A stretch of 64,000 bases of DNA from an uncultured Azospirillum sp. (GTDB taxonomy: Bacteria; Pseudomonadota; Alphaproteobacteria; RF32; CAG-239), in assembly GCA_947301965.1 (NCBI GenBank), contig CAMYUM010000005.1, forward strand, positions 22,128 through 86,127. The letters run 5' to 3'. The position numbers and the translations under genes were made by a program. Below the pieces are notes generated by a model, which was not told the DNA's origin, searched no databases, and was given only the letters and a program-made list of their open reading frames with translations. Each line of letters begins with the position of its first letter. The stretch's first letter is position 1. Shown here in pieces: positions 28,405-38,940 of this stretch.

Positions 28405-29532
28405 ATGGCTAGTAATGACAGACCAACGACCTCCAACTTAGCAAAAGCAATGCGAAAGCTAAACTCGATTGAGGTTTATTATGCCAAAATAATTTGCAAT
28501 ATGTCGGGCGAAACACGATTGAAAATGTATCGCAAAATTGCATCATTAATGTCAAACCGATTTTCGTTGATGAATGCATTGGATATGTTACACGCCACAG
28601 TTACCAATGACGGGAAAAACCCCAGTGAACCGATGGCGATTGCAATTGCCAGTTGGGCAAACGCCCTGCAAAATGGTCAACCATTTTCGGAAGCATTGCG
28701 TGGTTGGGCTCCTGACCGTGAAAGATTGATGTTGTCGGTGGGTGACGTTTCGGACCTGGAAAGCGCTTTGCTTAACTTGATTAAGGTTACGGAAGGCACC
28801 ACCAAAATGATACGACCAATTGTCGGTGCTATCAGTTACCCTGCATTTTTGTTGATGATGGTAACCCTTATTATTTATGGTATCGGTGCTTACATGGTAC
28901 CGCCAATGATTGAAGCTGCCCCGAATGTTCACTGGACGGGTATTGCTAAAAACCTGGCTGATTTGTCTGACTGGATCAGAGTATATTGGCCGATTGCGTT
29001 TTCTATTGTGCCGGTTACCGGTATTATAATTTATGCCACCATCGGTGTCTGGACCGGTACCATCAGAGCTGTTTTTGATAAATTTCCACCTTGGTCTTTG
29101 TATAAAGTATTTGTGGGTATTACATGGCTGTTGGCTATGTCGGCATTAATTAAAGGCGGAACGCCTGTGGCTAATGCCTTGCGAGCTCTGCGTCGTGACT
29201 CGACAAGATATTTGAGAGAAAGAATTGATAAGACCTTAGTGTTTATTAATAACGGTGATAACTTGGGACAAGCTTTGGCTAAAACCGGAATGGATTTTCC
29301 GGATCCGGAAATTATCGGTGACTTAAAGATTTATTCAGAAATGGATAACTTTGAAGAAGCTCTGGATAAGTTGGCTAACGAGTGGTTGGAAAATTCGGCT
29401 TATACCATTGAACAAAAGGCCGGCATTTTGAACATGATAGCCTTACTGTTGGTGTCAGGTGTTATTGCTTGGGCAGTTATGGGTACATTTGTCATGCAAG
29501 ACCAAATTACCAGCGCGATGGGAATTGGTTAA
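28405..29532 (+). CDS. pilR: PilR-type inner-membrane platform protein (GspF family)
   Basis: A 375-aa polytopic protein of the GspF/PilC/PilR family, the membrane platform on which the pilin fibre is assembled. The first cytoplasmic GspF domain includes KMYRKIASLMSNRFSLMNAL and the QNGQPFSEALRGW motif; membrane helices occur around residues 140-170 (PIVGAISYPAFLLMMVTLII), 190-220 and 345-370 (GILNMIALLLVSGVIAWAVM). The second GspF half has LLAMSALIKGGTPVANALRA and GDNLGQALAKTGMDFPDPEI. It follows pilQ by 15 bp with GGAGAA before ATG 28405. Length and topology are normal. Confidence 0.92.
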   Translation: MASNDRPTTSNLAKAMRKLNSIEVYYAKIICNMSGETRLKMYRKIASLMSNRFSLMNALDMLHATVTNDGKNPSEPMAIAIASWANALQNGQPFSEALRGWAPDRERLMLSVGDVSDLESALLNLIKVTEGTTKMIRPIVGAISYPAFLLMMVTLIIYGIGAYMVPPMIEAAPNVHWTGIAKNLADLSDWIRVYWPIAFSIVPVTGIIIYATIGVWTGTIRAVFDKFPPWSLYKVFVGITWLLAMSALIKGGTPVANALRALRRDSTRYLRERIDKTLVFINNGDNLGQALAKTGMDFPDPEIIGDLKIYSEMDNFEEALDKLANEWLENSAYTIEQKAGILNMIALLLVSGVIAWAVMGTFVMQDQITSAMGIG

Positions 29533-29533
29533 C

Positions 29534-30094
29534 ATGGCTAAAAACAAAAAAAATAACAATAAAAAATTATTATTAACTATTGCTATAATCAGTTTGGCAG
29601 TAGTTGTCCTCGTCTTTGCGTTTGTTTATAAAAACAAACAAATAAGCGGAGAAAACGCTGCTATTGATGTTGTAAAAATTGTCGGTGACGTGCATAAAAT
29701 GTATGTAAATAAAGCAAGTTATTGGCAATTGAGTACAAAATCTTTTTTTGGTAACGATATATTAACTAAATATCGTTATAAAGGAAATCAGCTGATTAAT
29801 ACCCTGGGCAAACCTATTCTGATTGGAAGAGGTGAAAGCGGAGACGTGATCATGCCCGGCGAAAAAAGCTTTGACGTTGTTTATACTGATTTGACTGCAG
29901 AAGAATGCGTAAGTGTTGCGGCTTATCGGTTTGAGCAACCGGAAAATTTGGGACTTTTGCAAATCACAATTATGAATGACGAAGAAAGTCAGACATTTGA
30001 GTGGGGCGCTGAGGACCATAGGCTCCCGATAAGTCGGGTCGAAGCAAAAAGTTTTTGCTCGAGCAATGCAAAGGTTGTTTGGACTTTTGAGTAG
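29534..30094 (+). CDS. Pilin-like protein without a classical prepilin leader
   Basis: A 186-aa protein starting at ATG 29534, two bases after the pilR stop TAA; the track start at 29459 lies inside pilR. It has a Lys/Asn-rich N-terminus, one hydrophobic helix (LLLTIAIISLAVVVLVFAFV) and a globular domain with LTAEECVSVAAYRF, which parallels LSKDACVAIASSDW of the PilS pilin, plus a C-terminal SSNAKVVWTFE parallel to NYVTWEYY. It therefore appears to share the type IVb pilin fold, but there is no Gly-[MF]xxxE processing site. It could be an unprocessed pilus assembly factor or a diverged minor pilin. Family link is inferred from these short similarities. Confidence 0.65.
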   Translation: MAKNKKNNNKKLLLTIAIISLAVVVLVFAFVYKNKQISGENAAIDVVKIVGDVHKMYVNKASYWQLSTKSFFGNDILTKYRYKGNQLINTLGKPILIGRGESGDVIMPGEKSFDVVYTDLTAEECVSVAAYRFEQPENLGLLQITIMNDEESQTFEWGAEDHRLPISRVEAKSFCSSNAKVVWTFE

Positions 30095-30126
30095 CGAAAG
30101 CAAAAGGGGTTTCAGATAAAAAACGC

Positions 30127-30155
30127 TTGCTTATGTTGTTAAAATACGATATAAT
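30127..30155 (+). promoter_or_regulatory. Sigma-70 promoter for the major pilin gene
   Basis: TTGCTT and TATAAT are separated by exactly 17 bp, about 37 bp upstream of the pilS start. This is the clearest housekeeping promoter in the pilus region and gives pilS its own transcript in addition to read-through from the operon. Confidence 0.8.
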
Positions 30156-30191
30156 GTAGAGTGGGATGTGATATTTTTTTGAGGAGATCAA

Positions 30192-30752
30192 ATGATGAAA
30201 ATGAGAAGTGAACAAACCGGTCGTTCAATGGTTGAAATGCTTGGTGTGTTAGCCATTATCGGCGTTTTGTCAGTTGGTGGTATCGCCGGTTATTCAAAGG
30301 CTATGGCCAAATATAAATTGACCAAATGTATGGATCAGGTTTCTACCACTGTTACCAATCTTCGTACTTTGTATTCTGGTCAGCCTAACTATTCAGGTTT
30401 AACCACACAGGTTATGATTCAAATGGGTGCAGTCGGTGCTGAAATGTTGAACGGTGTTTCTCCAACTACAGCTACAGCTGCATACAACGCTTTCAACGGT
30501 GCAGTTACAATTGAAGGCACATCTGGTCAAACCTTCAAACTTAAATTTGCAGGTTTGTCTAAAGATGCTTGCGTAGCAATTGCTTCTTCTGACTGGGGAT
30601 CTGGCTCAGGTTCTGGTTTGGTATCAATTCAAGCCGGTAGTGCCACAGCTGGAACAACAGCTGCCGGAACATTACCTTTGAGCTTGGCTACAGCAGCTTC
30701 TGGTTGTAATGCTGTCGGTGACACCAACTATGTTACTTGGGAATACTACTAA
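30192..30752 (+). CDS. pilS: Major type IVb prepilin (PilS-like)
   Basis: A 186-aa prepilin. The leader ends QTGRSMVEMLGVLAIIGVLS: cleavage is expected between Gly and Arg, leaving the conserved Glu near position 5 and the hydrophobic assembly helix. The globular part includes FAGLSKDACVAIASSDWGSG and a C-terminal Cys (AASGCNAVGD), giving a Cys pair suitable for the pilin disulfide loop. The mature N-terminal Arg is unusual; type IVb pilins commonly have Met, Leu or another residue instead of Phe. GAGGAG precedes two adjacent ATGs (30192 and 30195). Flanked by its own promoter and terminator, it is probably the most highly expressed gene of the operon. No prepilin peptidase gene is in the window. 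Confidence 0.92.
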   Translation: MMKMRSEQTGRSMVEMLGVLAIIGVLSVGGIAGYSKAMAKYKLTKCMDQVSTTVTNLRTLYSGQPNYSGLTTQVMIQMGAVGAEMLNGVSPTTATAAYNAFNGAVTIEGTSGQTFKLKFAGLSKDACVAIASSDWGSGSGSGLVSIQAGSATAGTTAAGTLPLSLATAASGCNAVGDTNYVTWEYY

Positions 30753-30780
30753 GAATATTTCCGTAACGGAAAAAGCTTGA

Positions 30781-30810
30781 AGAGGATGGCGAAAGCCATC
30801 CTCTTTTTTT
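30781..30810 (+). terminator. Intrinsic terminator after pilS
   Basis: A perfect 10-bp stem AGAGGATGGC / GCCATCCTCT with a GAAA tetraloop and a following run of Ts. It closes the pilS transcript. Confidence 0.93.
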
Positions 30811-30880
30811 GTGCGGATGAGTAAAGTTTATTTGTTGCAGAGGGCATAAAAAAAATATAGCCTGTTTTTAGGTGAGAAGA

Positions 30881-32635
30881 ATGAAAAAAATATTCAATAC
30901 GATATTAAGTTTGTTGATGTTTATTGCCGGCGGTATTGTTGCAGTATGCGTTTTGACCTTGTTTTTGTGGGGCAGAGTACGAATTGATCACGCCTGGATA
31001 TACGCACTGACATTTGGCGATGTCGGAATGAGCCTAAAATGTGTTTTTGCACTATGGGTTGCTGTTGGGGCAATATTGTTCGCCGTGTTGGGAAAATATT
31101 CTAAAAAAATTGCTTTGGTTATACCGTTGGTTGCAATCGGACTTTTTGCTTATACATTCAAGGTTGTAGAATGTTGGTGGAATGCTGGTGAAGTCTCAAC
31201 TTTGTATGAAAAAGAATATAAAACTTTTTTGTCGATGGAACAAGCTCCCAAGCGCAATTTGGTTGTGTTATTTTTGGAATCAATGGAAAATGAATATCGC
31301 AATTATAATGCTGATGGGGGAAATTTGTTACCGGAATTATCGGAAATTGCCGACAATAACCACTATTTTGATGATTTTTATCAGCTGGAATACAGTAATG
31401 CAACAATTTCGGCACAAGTGGCAGGATTGTGCGGTTTGGTTTATAAGACCGAACTTGAAGAATATAGTTTGTCTGCTCTACTAAATAATACTCTGCCTAA
31501 TGCGGTCTGCATTTCTGATGTGTTGGCAAATGCCGGATATAACTCTTATTTTTTGAAAGGGGCATCACTTGATTTTGCTTTGACCGAAAAATTTATGGCG
31601 CAACATAGTTTTAAAGAGTTGCAGGGCTTGCACGAGTTATCCAACTATAAAAAAGGCAGCGATTGGGGTATAAGAGACAGTGATTTATATACTGTTGCTA
31701 AGCAAAAAATTAAATGGTTGGCAGCGCAGAAAAAACCGTTTTTAGCCGTAGTGACCACTCTTGATATGCTCTATCCGAACGAATATTTAGATGCCCAATG
31801 CCTCAAAAGGTTTGGCGACCGACGTGATATTGTTCAATGTGCCGATTTTATGGCCGGAGAATTTGTGCATTGGTTACAAGAACAGGATTTTTCTGAAAAC
31901 ACCACCATTGTGTTGTTGGGTGATCATATTTTTGTCGGTAAAAATAATATTTATCCCGACAAGAAGGAGCGGCAGATTTTTAATGCAATTATCAATCCGG
32001 TTAAAGATTTGAGTGCTAAAAAACATAAATGGACAACTTTGGATATGGCGCCCACAATTTTGGAAGCTATCGGTATTAAGGCTCCCGAGTTCGGTTTGGG
32101 ACGATCATTATGGCAAAATGAACCGACGCTGTTTGAAAAATATGGCAACAGTTTGGATTTGGAGTTTATGAAAAATTCTGATTTTTATAAAAAGCTGAAC
32201 CAAACGTCGGAAGTAAACAAAAAATATGAACAACTCCCGTTAGGCGTTACACTGAAAGGAAATCAGATTAAACCCTACACTTCATTATTGATTGAAACAA
32301 AAGACAATGCTTTTGATGCTGTGTGGAGTGACGGGCTGAATTTCGCGGTCGGTAATGAGAACGGCTTGTGCCTCAAAGCAAAGTTTTTGCTGATAAAGAA
32401 TCGTTCAGATGAAAAAATCGAAGTGCTGCTCAACAATAAAAAATTTACCGAGTGGACTTTTGTAAAAGAAGAAAACGCCCCGTTTGAGAGAGAATTGTGC
32501 TTGCGCAAAGCAGATATTCCGACAAGCGGAAAAATTGCACTAACGTTTGTCAGAAAAATGGCATCGGCCAACCCGTTTGCTTACGCTCTGGGATGGCAAA
32601 ATATCAGTACAAGAATATGGACAAACAACAAATAA
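30881..32635 (+). CDS. OpgB/MdoB-like phosphoglycerol transferase (alkaline phosphatase superfamily)
   Basis: A 584-aa membrane enzyme. Four N-terminal hydrophobic segments (for example TILSLLMFIAGGIVAVCVLT and KKIALVIPLVAIGLFAYTF) precede a periplasmic catalytic domain with RNLVVLFLESMENEYRNY (metal-binding Glu), ATISAQVAGLCGL around residue 176 (likely catalytic Thr, like the FTIAGMVASQCG site of OpgB), and VVLLGDHIF with Asp-His metal ligands. The family transfers phosphoglycerol from phosphatidylglycerol to periplasmic glucans or teichoic acid. A C-terminal extension of about 130 residues (from about 455) is not part of the core domain. ATG 30881 was chosen over GTG 30872. It lies between pilS and a second pilin-like gene, so pilin or surface modification is possible (inference). 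Confidence 0.8.
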   Translation: MKKIFNTILSLLMFIAGGIVAVCVLTLFLWGRVRIDHAWIYALTFGDVGMSLKCVFALWVAVGAILFAVLGKYSKKIALVIPLVAIGLFAYTFKVVECWWNAGEVSTLYEKEYKTFLSMEQAPKRNLVVLFLESMENEYRNYNADGGNLLPELSEIADNNHYFDDFYQLEYSNATISAQVAGLCGLVYKTELEEYSLSALLNNTLPNAVCISDVLANAGYNSYFLKGASLDFALTEKFMAQHSFKELQGLHELSNYKKGSDWGIRDSDLYTVAKQKIKWLAAQKKPFLAVVTTLDMLYPNEYLDAQCLKRFGDRRDIVQCADFMAGEFVHWLQEQDFSENTTIVLLGDHIFVGKNNIYPDKKERQIFNAIINPVKDLSAKKHKWTTLDMAPTILEAIGIKAPEFGLGRSLWQNEPTLFEKYGNSLDLEFMKNSDFYKKLNQTSEVNKKYEQLPLGVTLKGNQIKPYTSLLIETKDNAFDAVWSDGLNFAVGNENGLCLKAKFLLIKNRSDEKIEVLLNNKKFTEWTFVKEENAPFERELCLRKADIPTSGKIALTFVRKMASANPFAYALGWQNISTRIWTNNK

Positions 32636-32679
32636 TGATCTAGATTGATTGAAGATTTTGATACCTCGGGAGAGCTATA

Positions 32680-33258
32680 ATGAAAAATGTACAGAACAAA
32701 AAATTTACCGTTAGAAACTTGTTGATTGCTTTTGCTTGTGTGTGCATTATCGGAACATCGGGTTTTGTTATCTATACACATCTGCTTGAAAAAGCGAGAA
32801 TAAATAATACGCTGAACCAAATTGCGACCCTGATTAATAACACTTATGCAATCTATAATTGGCGAAAACTATATGACGGATTGGGTAATGTTAGTGCTGT
32901 ACAAATGGGAATTTTGCCTAAAGATATGATTGTATCACCTTTGGTTTTGCACAATCCGTTTAAGGGCGATGTTCATTTAGGTTCGGTCAGTGGCGGTGAA
33001 GGATTTGCTATTTTGTATGGCGGGTTGCCTCCGAAGGCTTGCAACGCTATCGCTTCTACCGATTGGGGACACGCACATTCCTCAGGTTTGAAGTATTTAA
33101 TGATCAGTCCGAGCGGCTATTTAATGCCGAAATTCTTCCCCGAAAGACTGAGCGACGGCGAATACGATTCATCAAATTTGCCGCTAAAATATGATGAAAC
33201 ATCAAAGCACTGCATTTGTAACGGATCAAAATGTGCAGTGCTGTTCTTCTTCCAATAA
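32680..33258 (+). CDS. Pilin-like membrane-anchored protein
   Basis: A 192-aa protein with a basic N-terminus, one hydrophobic helix (NLLIAFACVCIIGTSGFVIY) and a globular domain holding LPPKACNAIASTDWGHAHSS, clearly related to LSKDACVAIASSDWGSGSGS of PilS, plus a C-terminal Cys cluster (CICNGSKC). No Gly-x4-Glu prepilin processing site is present before the helix. It resembles the 186-aa pilin-like protein upstream in this respect. It may be a minor pilin-fold component that stays in the membrane, or a diverged duplicate of pilS. It is the last plus-strand gene before a convergent junction. Confidence 0.65.
   Translation: MKNVQNKKFTVRNLLIAFACVCIIGTSGFVIYTHLLEKARINNTLNQIATLINNTYAIYNWRKLYDGLGNVSAVQMGILPKDMIVSPLVLHNPFKGDVHLGSVSGGEGFAILYGGLPPKACNAIASTDWGHAHSSGLKYLMISPSGYLMPKFFPERLSDGEYDSSNLPLKYDETSKHCICNGSKCAVLFFFQ
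33206..33242. other. Inverted repeat at the convergent junction
   Basis: AGCACTGCA and TGCAGTGCT form a perfect 9-bp stem with a 19-nt loop, overlapping the last codons of the pilin-like gene, 20 bp from the stop of the opposing DUF1349 gene. It may act as a bidirectional end signal but has no good T-run. Confidence 0.35.
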
Positions 33259-35651: not shown

Positions 35652-35744
35652 ATTTTTCCCTCTTTATAAATTAATGATTGAGTTTGTCTTCGGTAATAAT
35701 ATAATACAAACAAATATATTCGCAATTGTATAGTGAGGGTTGTA

Positions 35745-36728
35745 ATGAAGAAAACGATTTGGGTGCTGCTTGACAACCGTATGGGCAGTGTCGGTCAGGC
35801 CAAAGGGGTTTTGCAGGAACTGCAAGATGACTTTGAAATTGTTGAGAAAAAGATTGTATATACAAAATTTGCCGCTTTGCCCAACCAAATCAGAGGGTGT
35901 CATTTTTTAATCGGCGTTAATACTAAAGAATCGGATTGTCTGAAAACAACGGAATATCCCGATGCCGTCTTATCAATCAGCCGCAGAACCGCTCCCATTG
36001 CTCTATGGATTAAGCGAAAATCAAAAGGAAAAACCAAAATAATTCAACTTATGCTGCCGGGAAAATACGGTTTGAATGATATGGACTTGGTAATTGTTTC
36101 AAAGCATGACCAGGGCAAGGTCTTCGGCAAAAATCTGTTTTATATTACCGGCTGTCCGCACCGTATAAACGACAAAACTTTGGCAGAAGCAAAAGAAAAA
36201 TGGAGCGGTGAATTTGCCAAATTGCCCAAGCCGTTAACGGCGGTTTTGGTCGGAGGCTCAATTAAAGGCAAACCTTTTACCGATGAAAATGCCGCAAGAT
36301 TGGCCGATACCATCGCTATGGTGCAAAATCAGGTGAGCGGATCAATATTAATTACATCTTCGCGCCGAACCGGTAAAAGCGCCGAAAACATTATAATGAA
36401 TAAAATTAGCGGGATTCCTACATATACATATTTGTGGGGAGAAGACAAAGAAAACCCAATTATGGGATTTTATGCCTGCGCAGACCGCTTTGTTACAACC
36501 GGAGACTCGGTTTCGATGACTTGTGAAGCCTGCGGAACAGGAAAACCGGTGATAGTGTTTACCGGCAAAAAATGGCTGACACGTAAACATTTGCGCTTTG
36601 TTCAATCGCTGATTGACGGCGGTTATGCGATTGGCGCCGAAACCAAAAATATCGTCGATTTTGCACCGGAAAAAACTTTGCGGCCGGCAATTGAGGCAGC
36701 TGAAAAAATAAAACAGTTATTCGATTAG
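35745..36728 (+). CDS. ELM1-family protein (mitochondrial fission ELM1-like)
   Basis: A 327-aa protein of the ELM1 family (PF06258-type), widespread in Alphaproteobacteria and carried into plant mitochondria. Landmarks: WVLLDNRMGSVGQAKGVLQE at the N-terminus, LPGKYGLNDMDLVIVSKHDQ, TAVLVGGSIKGKPFTDENA, ILITSSRRTGKSAENI and FVTTGDSVSMTCEACGTGKP. The fold is glycosyltransferase-like; bacterial function is unsettled, possibly sugar transfer to the envelope. The GTG at 35733 in the track is replaced by ATG 35745, with GAGGG 5 nt upstream. It ends overlapping the stop of the convergent methyltransferase gene. Confidence 0.85.
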   Translation: MKKTIWVLLDNRMGSVGQAKGVLQELQDDFEIVEKKIVYTKFAALPNQIRGCHFLIGVNTKESDCLKTTEYPDAVLSISRRTAPIALWIKRKSKGKTKIIQLMLPGKYGLNDMDLVIVSKHDQGKVFGKNLFYITGCPHRINDKTLAEAKEKWSGEFAKLPKPLTAVLVGGSIKGKPFTDENAARLADTIAMVQNQVSGSILITSSRRTGKSAENIIMNKISGIPTYTYLWGEDKENPIMGFYACADRFVTTGDSVSMTCEACGTGKPVIVFTGKKWLTRKHLRFVQSLIDGGYAIGAETKNIVDFAPEKTLRPAIEAAEKIKQLFD

Positions 36729-37426
36729 TACAAATTGCCTTTGCGGGTTATGACTACTTTTTGGTACATTTTGCCGAAATAAGTGGTTTTGTGCCATTCA
36801 TATGAGCGGCGATTGGAAACATAGTCTTTAATTTCGGTCTGCCACATTCTTTCAGCAAAAGGCTGGTAAAGCCGGTTGAACATTTTGACCAACCATTTTA
36901 ATGGGTGCCACCAGACGGCGTTATTATAATCTATAAACACGGCTTTGCCCTCGGGAGCAAGGTTTGAAAGAATTTGGTTGATTACCTTGCTTTTGGACGG
37001 AAGAGGAAGTTCGTGGAGCAGCATATAGCAAATAATTACATCATATTTTCCGCTGAACGGTACGGTTGCATCGCGATTGATAAAGTTCATAAACGGGTAA
37101 GCAAAACGATGTTTGTTGCGAATGTAGCGCAGTTGAGTAAGGCTGACATCAACTACATCAAGACGACCGTAAACTCCGATTTTGGAAGCAAGCCGCCCGA
37201 GTTGATCGCCAAAAGTTGCTCCCAACTGCAAAACCTGTTGGCGGGATTTTACTTCGGCGGCGCAAGCATCGGCAAGTTTTTTGCTGTAACCAAAGGTTAA
37301 TATGTTTAACAACCATTGATGATCAAACAGCTTGGTCAGGCGGCGGCTTTCATACAGACCGCTGTAAAACTCCTGCTGATAAGGCGGAATCATTGCCGGA
37401 TTTTCAACTATTTTTTGTTTTGCCAT
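36725..37426 (-). CDS. rquA: RquA-like rhodoquinone biosynthesis protein (methyltransferase fold)
   Basis: A 233-aa class-I methyltransferase-fold protein. The SAM region VLQLGATFGDQLGRLASKIG lacks the classical acidic GxGxG motif, as in RquA, and later motifs fit that family: YDVIICYMLLHELPLPSKSK, AVFIDYNNAVWWHPLKWLVK, PFAERMWQTEI and HKTTYFGKMYQKVVITRKG. RquA converts ubiquinone to rhodoquinone, which allows fumarate reduction under anoxia. I rely on remembered family motifs, so a generic UbiE/COQ5-like methyltransferase is the alternative. It starts directly after rsmE (whose GGAGTAA stop region provides its RBS), so they form an operon. Confidence 0.65.
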   Translation of the reverse strand: MAKQKIVENPAMIPPYQQEFYSGLYESRRLTKLFDHQWLLNILTFGYSKKLADACAAEVKSRQQVLQLGATFGDQLGRLASKIGVYGRLDVVDVSLTQLRYIRNKHRFAYPFMNFINRDATVPFSGKYDVIICYMLLHELPLPSKSKVINQILSNLAPEGKAVFIDYNNAVWWHPLKWLVKMFNRLYQPFAERMWQTEIKDYVSNRRSYEWHKTTYFGKMYQKVVITRKGNLY

Positions 37427-37429
37427 GAT

Positions 37430-38167
37430 TTACTCCTTTTTCCAATCACCACAAATTGCTTGCCAGCATGATAATGATGCCATCGCCGCAGTTTCAGCAC
37501 GCAAAATGCGTTTGCCTAAACTAACGGCGCAGGCATATGGCTTTGAGTGTAATAAATTAAGTTCTTGCGCACTAAAACCACCCTCGGGTCCGATTAACAA
37601 AGCCAACGGAGGTTTTGCCGACGAAAAGACGGTTGCAACGTCTGTTCCGGAGCCGGTTTCATCCATAAAATAAAGTCGGCGACGCGAATCCCAATTTTCT
37701 AAAAGTTTGGAAAGCGCAATCGGCTCATCAATTTGCGGAAGATCAACGCGGCGTGATTGTTCGGCGGCTTCAATTGTTTGAGCTTGCCAACGCTCAATTT
37801 TTATCTTGTCCGAAATGGTATATTCGGTAATAACCGGAACAATTTTAGAAGCACCGAGTTCGGTTGCTTTTTCAACCACAAAATCGGTGCGGTCTTTTTT
37901 CAACGGAGCAAACATCAACCATATGTCGGGACAACTTTCGTATTTTTTGGTTTGGAAATTGACTTTTAACTGTGCCTGCTTTTTGCTTTGGGGCAAAAGC
38001 GTACACTCAAATTCTCCGTCGCGGTTGTTGAAGACCAAAATTTTTTCGTCAGCCGTTAAACGCATGACCATAAGCAAATAATGACTCTGTTCGGGAGTTA
38101 GGTTGACAAGCGAATCGACGCTTAAGTCAACATCTGCGTAAATACGTATTTTTGAAGTCTTCGGCAC
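37430..38167 (-). CDS. rsmE: 16S rRNA (uracil1498-N3)-methyltransferase RsmE
   Basis: A 245-aa SPOUT-class methyltransferase that modifies U1498 of 16S rRNA. The N-terminal PUA-like domain (LTPEQSHYLLMVMRLTADEK, VFNNRDGEFECTLL) is followed by the knotted catalytic domain with FVVEKATELGASKIVPVITE, EQSRRVDLPQI, LLIGPEGGFSAQELNLL and VSLGKRILRAETAAMASL. The track start at 38206 adds 13 residues; GTG 38167 lies 6 nt after AGGGAG and gives the usual family length. Confidence 0.93.
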   Translation of the reverse strand: MPKTSKIRIYADVDLSVDSLVNLTPEQSHYLLMVMRLTADEKILVFNNRDGEFECTLLPQSKKQAQLKVNFQTKKYESCPDIWLMFAPLKKDRTDFVVEKATELGASKIVPVITEYTISDKIKIERWQAQTIEAAEQSRRVDLPQIDEPIALSKLLENWDSRRRLYFMDETGSGTDVATVFSSAKPPLALLIGPEGGFSAQELNLLHSKPYACAVSLGKRILRAETAAMASLSCWQAICGDWKKE

Positions 38168-38274
38168 AGCGTTCTCCCTGAACAAAATTCTGCATAAATG
38201 ACTCAATCAACTTGAGTTTCAACGCAAATTATTATAACTGATGGTTAGTTAAGTTTTCGTTACAGGCAAAAAAT

Positions 38275-38940
38275 ATGATTATCACTATCGACGGACCTGC
38301 GGCAGCAGGAAAAGGGACTCTGGCAGCCAGTCTGGCAAAAGAGTTTAATTTGGCGTATTTTGATACCGGTATGGTATATAGAGCCGTGGGTTTGGAAATG
38401 TTGCTCAACGGATATGAGCTGACCGACAACGAAAAAGCCGAAAAATTTGCCGAACAACTAACTTTTCCCCGAATGATGGAACTGTCAAAAAATCCGGAAT
38501 TTCGCTCTTTGAACGGAAGCCGCGCGGCTTCGGCAGTAGCGGCAATGCCCAAAGTGAGACAAGCTTTGTTGGAAATGCAACAAAATTTTTCGCATAATCC
38601 GGTATTTGCTGACGGAAGCAAGGCAGACGGCGCAATTTATGACGGGAGAGATACCGGAACCGTAATTTGTCCGCATGCCGATATAAAATTTTTTATTACC
38701 GCATCGCCGGAAGTCAGGGCAATGCGCCGTTTTAAAGAATATCAGGAAAAAGGGCAAGATGTAGATTATAAAGAAGTTTTGGAACAGACCATCGCTCGGG
38801 ATAAAAACGACTTTGCCCGCGCCGGAAGTCAACCGGCGGCAGACGCCATACATTTTGACACCTCAGACCTTTCCATCAGTGAGGTTTTTGAGCAGGTTTG
38901 CAAAATTATCGTTGAAAAACAAAAAACACTTGAAAAATAA
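38275..38940 (+). CDS. cmk: Cytidylate kinase
   Basis: A 221-aa (d)CMP kinase, providing CDP/dCDP for nucleotide synthesis. P-loop IDGPAAAGKGTLAAS at the N-terminus; FDTGMVYRAVGLEML and IYDGRDTGTVICPHADIKFF (the normally GRDIGT motif reads GRDTGT); LID-like region RRFKEYQEKGQDVDY and later FDTSDLSISEV. The start ATG 38275 gives the family's normal beginning. The cmk-rpsA order is widely conserved in Proteobacteria. Confidence 0.95.
   Translation: MIITIDGPAAAGKGTLAASLAKEFNLAYFDTGMVYRAVGLEMLLNGYELTDNEKAEKFAEQLTFPRMMELSKNPEFRSLNGSRAASAVAAMPKVRQALLEMQQNFSHNPVFADGSKADGAIYDGRDTGTVICPHADIKFFITASPEVRAMRRFKEYQEKGQDVDYKEVLEQTIARDKNDFARAGSQPAADAIHFDTSDLSISEVFEQVCKIIVEKQKTLEK

Follow-up and report, generated by a model that had tools for sequence, protein, structure and literature searches.

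The closest described counterpart of the gene analyzed here is RquA of Rhodospirillum rubrum (Rru_A3227, Q2RPC3; NCBIfam NF038261), for which a D118/D143 double mutant made no rhodoquinone (RQ) (PMC9814641). As a genomic marker, rquA is used to infer that an organism makes RQ and respires anaerobically with fumarate; the NCBIfam model that recognizes the proteins described below is named "rhodoquinone biosynthesis methyltransferase."

RquA in gut alphaproteobacterial MAGs is already known. Passages of Stairs 2018 (PMC5953543) on these genomes report it in six human-gut alphaproteobacterial MAGs, treat them as having RQ metabolism, and propose gut relatives of the kind studied here as donors of eukaryotic rquA. 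The "MAG Azo/Aceto" RquA of that study comes from gut Rhodospirillales-like MAGs and probably belongs to the same group as ours; the missing ubiquinone (UQ) pathway or complex II, described below, is not discussed in those passages. Degli Esposti 2016 (PMC4967309) reported [FeFe]-hydrogenase, NuoEF-like proteins, and PFO in such gut MAGs, and we infer that the MAGs of both studies fall in the order analyzed here. A 2026 quinone survey (PMC13386864) gives ubiquinone for 146 of 159 Pseudomonadota orders; its parts that bear on rquA infer RQ in UQ-making lineages and do not take up the case of an rquA unaccompanied by ubiquinone. In the literature that we searched, no report of an RquA decoupled from quinones was found.

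The rquA locus

The window (the whole 64,000-nucleotide stretch of DNA that was analyzed) belongs to a genome of 1.29 Mb in 21 contigs, with a listed completeness of 100% and contamination of 0.1%; its named congeneric neighbors are MAGs from the rumen and gut labeled uncultured Rhodospirillales or Alphaproteobacteria. The features at the window's rquA are as follows.

35733..36728, plus strand: ELM1-family gene (PF06258), converging on rquA
36725..37426, minus strand: RquA-family gene of the orphan subclade (ORF with NCBIfam match; 233 aa, class I SAM-binding fold)
RquA residues 65-74: motif I, VLQLGATFGD
RquA residues D93 and D119: SAM pocket
RquA residues 138-141, 165-167, 189-192, and 221-223: motifs HELP, IDY, PFAE, and YQK
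37430..38206, minus strand: rsmE, 16S rRNA m3U1498 methyltransferase (PF04452, PF20260), upstream of rquA
38275..38940, plus strand: cmk, cytidylate kinase, divergent neighbor of the rquA region

Positions 36725-37426 hold exactly one ORF, on the minus strand, with its ATG at 37426 and its stop codon ending at 36725; read on the plus strand, the interval is broken by stops. An earlier reading of this interval, made from the letters of the DNA (here, the sequence-only reading), had quoted the motifs HPLKWLVK, PFAERMW, FGKMYQKVV, and VLQLGATFGD, and all four are present in the 233-aa minus-strand translation. It had named the gene rquA rather than a UbiE/COQ5 methyltransferase gene, and this assignment was borne out. 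NF038261 matched the ORF end to end with 206.8 bits (E = 3.4e-61), above the curated equivalog cutoff of 175 bits, versus 18.9 bits with the UbiE model (cutoff, 378). Pfam returned generic methyltransferase domains only, with Ubie_methyltran at 16.2 against a cutoff of 20.1. UbiE/COQ5 shares superfamily and SAM-binding fold with the window protein, but a UbiE/COQ5 identity is ruled out by these scores and by a motif I with neither an acidic residue nor GxGxG. The window protein has the disrupted, RquA-type motif I, in which Gln stands in place of Asp/Glu, and two SAM-contact aspartates.

An AlphaFold model of the protein (mean pLDDT, 76) has the class I SAM-binding fold. R. rubrum RquA is a class I methyltransferase of the same fold, likewise with Gln at the acidic position of a non-canonical motif I, and both proteins have an aspartate at each of the two SAM-contact positions as well as the HELP, DY, PF, and YQK positions. 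In the model, D93 closes strand 2 and D119 follows strand 3, with a spacing of 26 versus 25 in R. rubrum; judged by this position and spacing, they would be the equivalents of R. rubrum D118 and D143. The window protein is 26 to 36% identical to most of the UQ-linked RquAs from other alphaproteobacteria (23% to one outlier). Foldseek searches with the model returned general class I methyltransferases only, PDB sequence matches were weak, and no solved structure of a close relative was found. A search for RquA on plasmids found none.

Three bases separate rsmE from rquA in the window, and the two genes are probably co-transcribed. On the other side, the stop codons of rquA and the convergent ELM1-family gene share 4 bases; the overlap of this PF06258 gene with the rquA stop is kept in several genera. 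The context rpsA-cmk/rsmE-(response regulator-Hpt)-rquA is conserved across the order, and in congeneric rumen and gut MAGs the orthologues are 67 to 93% identical and in conserved order. Elsewhere in the window (29459-33258, plus strand), a sulfatase-family gene lies amid three type IV pilin-like proteins (Bundlin/PilS matches).

RquA was found in 141 of the 153 genomes of the order (E ≤ 0.001), one with only 26 bits, which leaves about 140 that are real; 102 of the 153 have an RquA over the curated cutoff. The gene is present in all 17 genera of the order, with reading frames intact throughout. Pairwise dN/dS within the order was 0.02 to 0.09 for rquA, 0.14 to 0.17 for rsmE, and 0.06 for cmk; these ratios are approximate, many synonymous sites being near saturation, but the constraint is clear. 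This purifying selection shows that the rquA of the window is functional.

Quinone and respiratory genes

The sequence-only reading went on to propose that the organism makes RQ and respires with fumarate in an anoxic niche. The gene inventory of the order was built by targeted searches of MAGs rather than by full annotation; for the UbiA, SDH, complex I, and cytochrome bd families, the controls were positive in 10 to 14 of 14 known genomes. The UbiA family includes UbiA, MenA, MqnP, and CtaB, and a profile search found no prenyltransferase of this family in the window's genome. Across the order, 13 of 153 genomes had UbiA-family matches. For the seven of these that were tested, the best match was decaprenyl-phosphate phosphoribosyltransferase, some falling below its cutoff; five of the seven gave 33 to 48 bits with the UbiA equivalog, whose cutoff is 275, and the remaining six matches resemble the tested seven by eye. 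As quinone prenyltransferases these matches were rejected, since they look decaprenyl-phosphate phosphoribosyltransferase-like.

The C-terminal domain of SdhA/FrdA (Succ_DH_flav_C, PF02910) was found in 0 of 153 genomes of the order, and PF00890 matched only stubs of 32 to 38 residues in the window's genome. The 49-kDa subunit of complex I (PF00346) matched in one genome of 153, G152, the sole member of the order's other family (f2; the window's family is f1), and cytochrome bd had no match over the cutoff among the order genomes. A joined query of Escherichia coli UbiA, UbiE, UbiG, UbiV, SdhA, SdhB, NuoB, Ndh, and PyrD, with RpmA as the control, returned the control and weak generic matches only in nine f1 genomes, including that of the window; G152 gave a 31-bit NuoB-like match and weak Ndh- and PyrD-like matches. 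A second joined query (CyoB, GlpD, RsxD, HybB, DsbB, FixC, and RpmA plus a response regulator and an Hpt-like protein) found no CyoB, GlpD, HybB, DsbB, or FixC in the order genomes searched.

The second query did find RnfD in the window's genome and many relatives; G001, G005, G103, and G143, from other genera of the order among those tested, had no RnfD match. The window's genome holds a complete rnf operon (apbE, rseC-like, rnfBCDGEA; L125 4210-10585). Its NQR-like operon is Rnf and not the quinone-reducing NQR, as RnfC scored 521.5 versus 246 bits and RnfD 365 versus 207 bits.

The absences of UbiA-family, SDH, complex I, and cytochrome bd proteins recur across 109 high-quality genomes. Neither a substrate supply for RQ synthesis nor a user of RQ was found in the window's genome and family. 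The proposed RQ production is not supported: the UbiA/E/G/V precursor pathway was not found in the window's genome. Fumarate respiration fared no better, as a fumarate-reductase-type SDH turned up neither in the window's genome nor in any of the order's 153; complex I and the oxidases tested were not found in the window's genome either.

A sample of 289 genomes from across the class contained 21 with RquA, of which 17 lie outside the window's order. All nine holders checked outside the order whose RquA falls in the UQ-linked clade (see below) have ubiquinone genes, unlike the window's genome, in which the ubiquinone pathway, complex II, and complex I were not found. With the first joined query, UbiA/E/G and SdhA/B were detected in G195, G204, G299, G346, G354, and G245, and UbiA, UbiG, UbiV, and NuoB in G369, G257, and G201, where SdhA was not found. 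RQ may serve an acceptor other than fumarate in these last three. Two holders lay outside the joined-query set: G154 (81% complete), with an RquA in the UQ-linked clade and no convincing UbiA-family protein, and G267, with an RquA below the cutoff and UbiA-family proteins present. In families f23 and f74, the first joined query found no UbiA, UbiE, or SdhA, and a UbiG-like match in one f74 genome was weak at 28 bits. With the UbiA profile, f23 had no match, and f74 had phosphoribosyltransferase-like proteins only. Complex I-like nuo operons occur with RquA and without a quinone-type UbiA prenyltransferase at L160 7899-16356 (G340) and L128 4931-11560 (G152).

Orphan and ubiquinone-linked RquAs

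The window's protein lies in a separate group of RquAs, the checked genomes of which have no ubiquinone genes; we call these orphan RquAs. In an unrooted tree, f1, f2, f23, and f74 fall together on one side of a branch with support of 99/98, and the 35 f1 sequences form a clade (100/98). When UbiE/UbiG sequences were used as the outgroup, the UQ-linked RquAs formed a clade (99/94) and the orphan lineages lay outside it, partly as successive branches. The window RquA thus groups apart from the clade formed by RquAs of hosts that make ubiquinone, which is a clue to function and not to family membership. Long outgroup branches make the root unsure, and with it any choice of the ancestral state.

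The two groups also differ in motif I. Gly69 is present in 45 of 45 orphans and in 0 of 12 UQ-linked RquAs, a difference for which a Fisher value is no proper probability, the sequences being related. It replaces the Ala, Thr, or Ser of the UQ-linked proteins, and Tyr72 is mostly replaced by Phe. Gln67 is found in 12 of 12 UQ-linked sequences and 43 of 45 orphans. All 45 orphans have Asp93, and position 119 is Asp in 35 and Asn in 10. Asp93, Asp119, His138-Glu139-x-Pro141, Asp166-Tyr167, Pro189-Phe190, and Gln222 are largely common to both groups.

We consider it probable that the window encodes a functional RquA-family member of a deep orphan subgroup, with RquA-like SAM chemistry, that neither acts on ubiquinone made by the cell nor feeds a fumarate reductase. 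Its hosts are quinone-less and apparently fermentative gut alphaproteobacteria. RquA-type chemistry is most likely retained because the RquA-type SAM pocket is kept. The reaction would use SAM, perhaps with the help of a metal, to transfer an amino group to a quinone-like ring. The substrate would be a small molecule of another kind or else a quinone acquired from the surroundings, and by this reading substrate or role would have changed in the orphan proteins. More tentatively, an order of quinone-less gut bacteria may have kept, or never given up, a SAM-dependent amino-transfer enzyme for a non-ubiquinone substrate, and RQ synthesis may have evolved from or into it; we see this as a serious possibility without favoring it.

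Several observations count against this reading. According to passages of Stairs 2018 (PMC5953543), the RquAs of gut MAGs, probably from the window's order, have a weak affinity with those of anaerobic protists, e.g., Blastocystis. The pocket residues conserved with UQ-linked RquAs would equally fit an unchanged UQ-to-RQ activity on scavenged ubiquinone, and the complex I-like operons kept in f74 and G152 (f2) without a quinone prenyltransferase or quinone synthesis hint at imported or unknown quinones in these relatives. Both of the latter points are consistent with the main rival explanation, salvage, in which ubiquinone from diet, host, or other microbes would be converted by RquA to RQ for a quinone-dependent step unrecognized here. 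We judge salvage unlikely, though it keeps a sizable share of the remaining probability. In the main family, f1, however, complex I, SdhA/FrdA, cytochrome bd, CyoB, GlpD, FixC, HybB, DsbB, and PyrD2 were not found, and the sole NQR-like operon in the window's genome is Rnf. Nothing direct on the scavenging of quinones, or on rquA in the absence of ubiquinone, was found in the literature searched.

Less likely again, the protein would be a SAM-dependent methyltransferase of the ordinary kind, caught by the RquA model through common ancestry. The modeled class I methyltransferase fold would suit such an enzyme, as would the first Gly of motif I, retained by the orphans and lost in UQ-linked RquAs, and the branching of some orphan lineages below the UQ-linked clade in the UbiE/UbiG-outgroup tree. 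Against this stand the 102 genomes of the order that pass the curated RquA cutoff, the Gln that replaces the acidic residue together with the other RquA-conserved positions, and the far lower scores of UbiE and other methyltransferase models. A genuine RQ-making fumarate respirer whose pathway genes were missed by assembly or searches is very improbable: the RquA over the equivalog cutoff speaks for it, but the genome is listed as complete, the same absences recur in the high-quality genomes, and the controls were positive. Least credible is a relic gene on its way to loss after respiration was given up, which would agree with the quinone and respiratory genes not found and the regulators missing in the window's genus but is already contradicted by the dN/dS values and the frames intact order-wide.

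Returning to the orphan RquA reading, the rquA marker probably over-predicts because a conserved, order-wide RquA group occurs in genomes with no detected ubiquinone pathway or quinone-using enzyme, and rquA alone should not be taken as proof of RQ respiration. With their common pocket and clean Gly69 difference, orphan and UQ-linked RquAs make a natural comparison set for substrate choice and for the origin of SAM-amination chemistry.

Regulatory genes beside rquA

Between rsmE and rquA, most genera of the order carry a NarL-type response regulator, often followed by a short Hpt-like protein; the window's genus lacks these regulators at the locus, and its rsmE directly adjoins rquA. In f1 and f2, the name Hpt-like reflects position and size only, as Pfam gave these proteins no match. 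A response regulator, a small protein, and then rquA are found in G152, a response regulator stands immediately before rquA in f74, and a hybrid histidine kinase and Hpt precede it in two f23 genomes. G201 retains ubiquinone genes, and its rquA is preceded by a response regulator and a PAS-kinase-receiver-Hpt protein. Regulators thus accompany rquA in genomes both with and without ubiquinone genes, but they are dispensable for the retention of rquA, as the window's genus is without them. The genomic-context section of Stairs 2018 (PMC5953543) does not mention a phosphorelay-rquA link. Directly upstream of rquA at L096, L097, L098, L095, L099, L102, and L105, in several alphaproteobacterial families, are genes of two-component phosphorelays: a NarL-type response regulator, a hybrid kinase, or an Hpt or Hpt-like protein.
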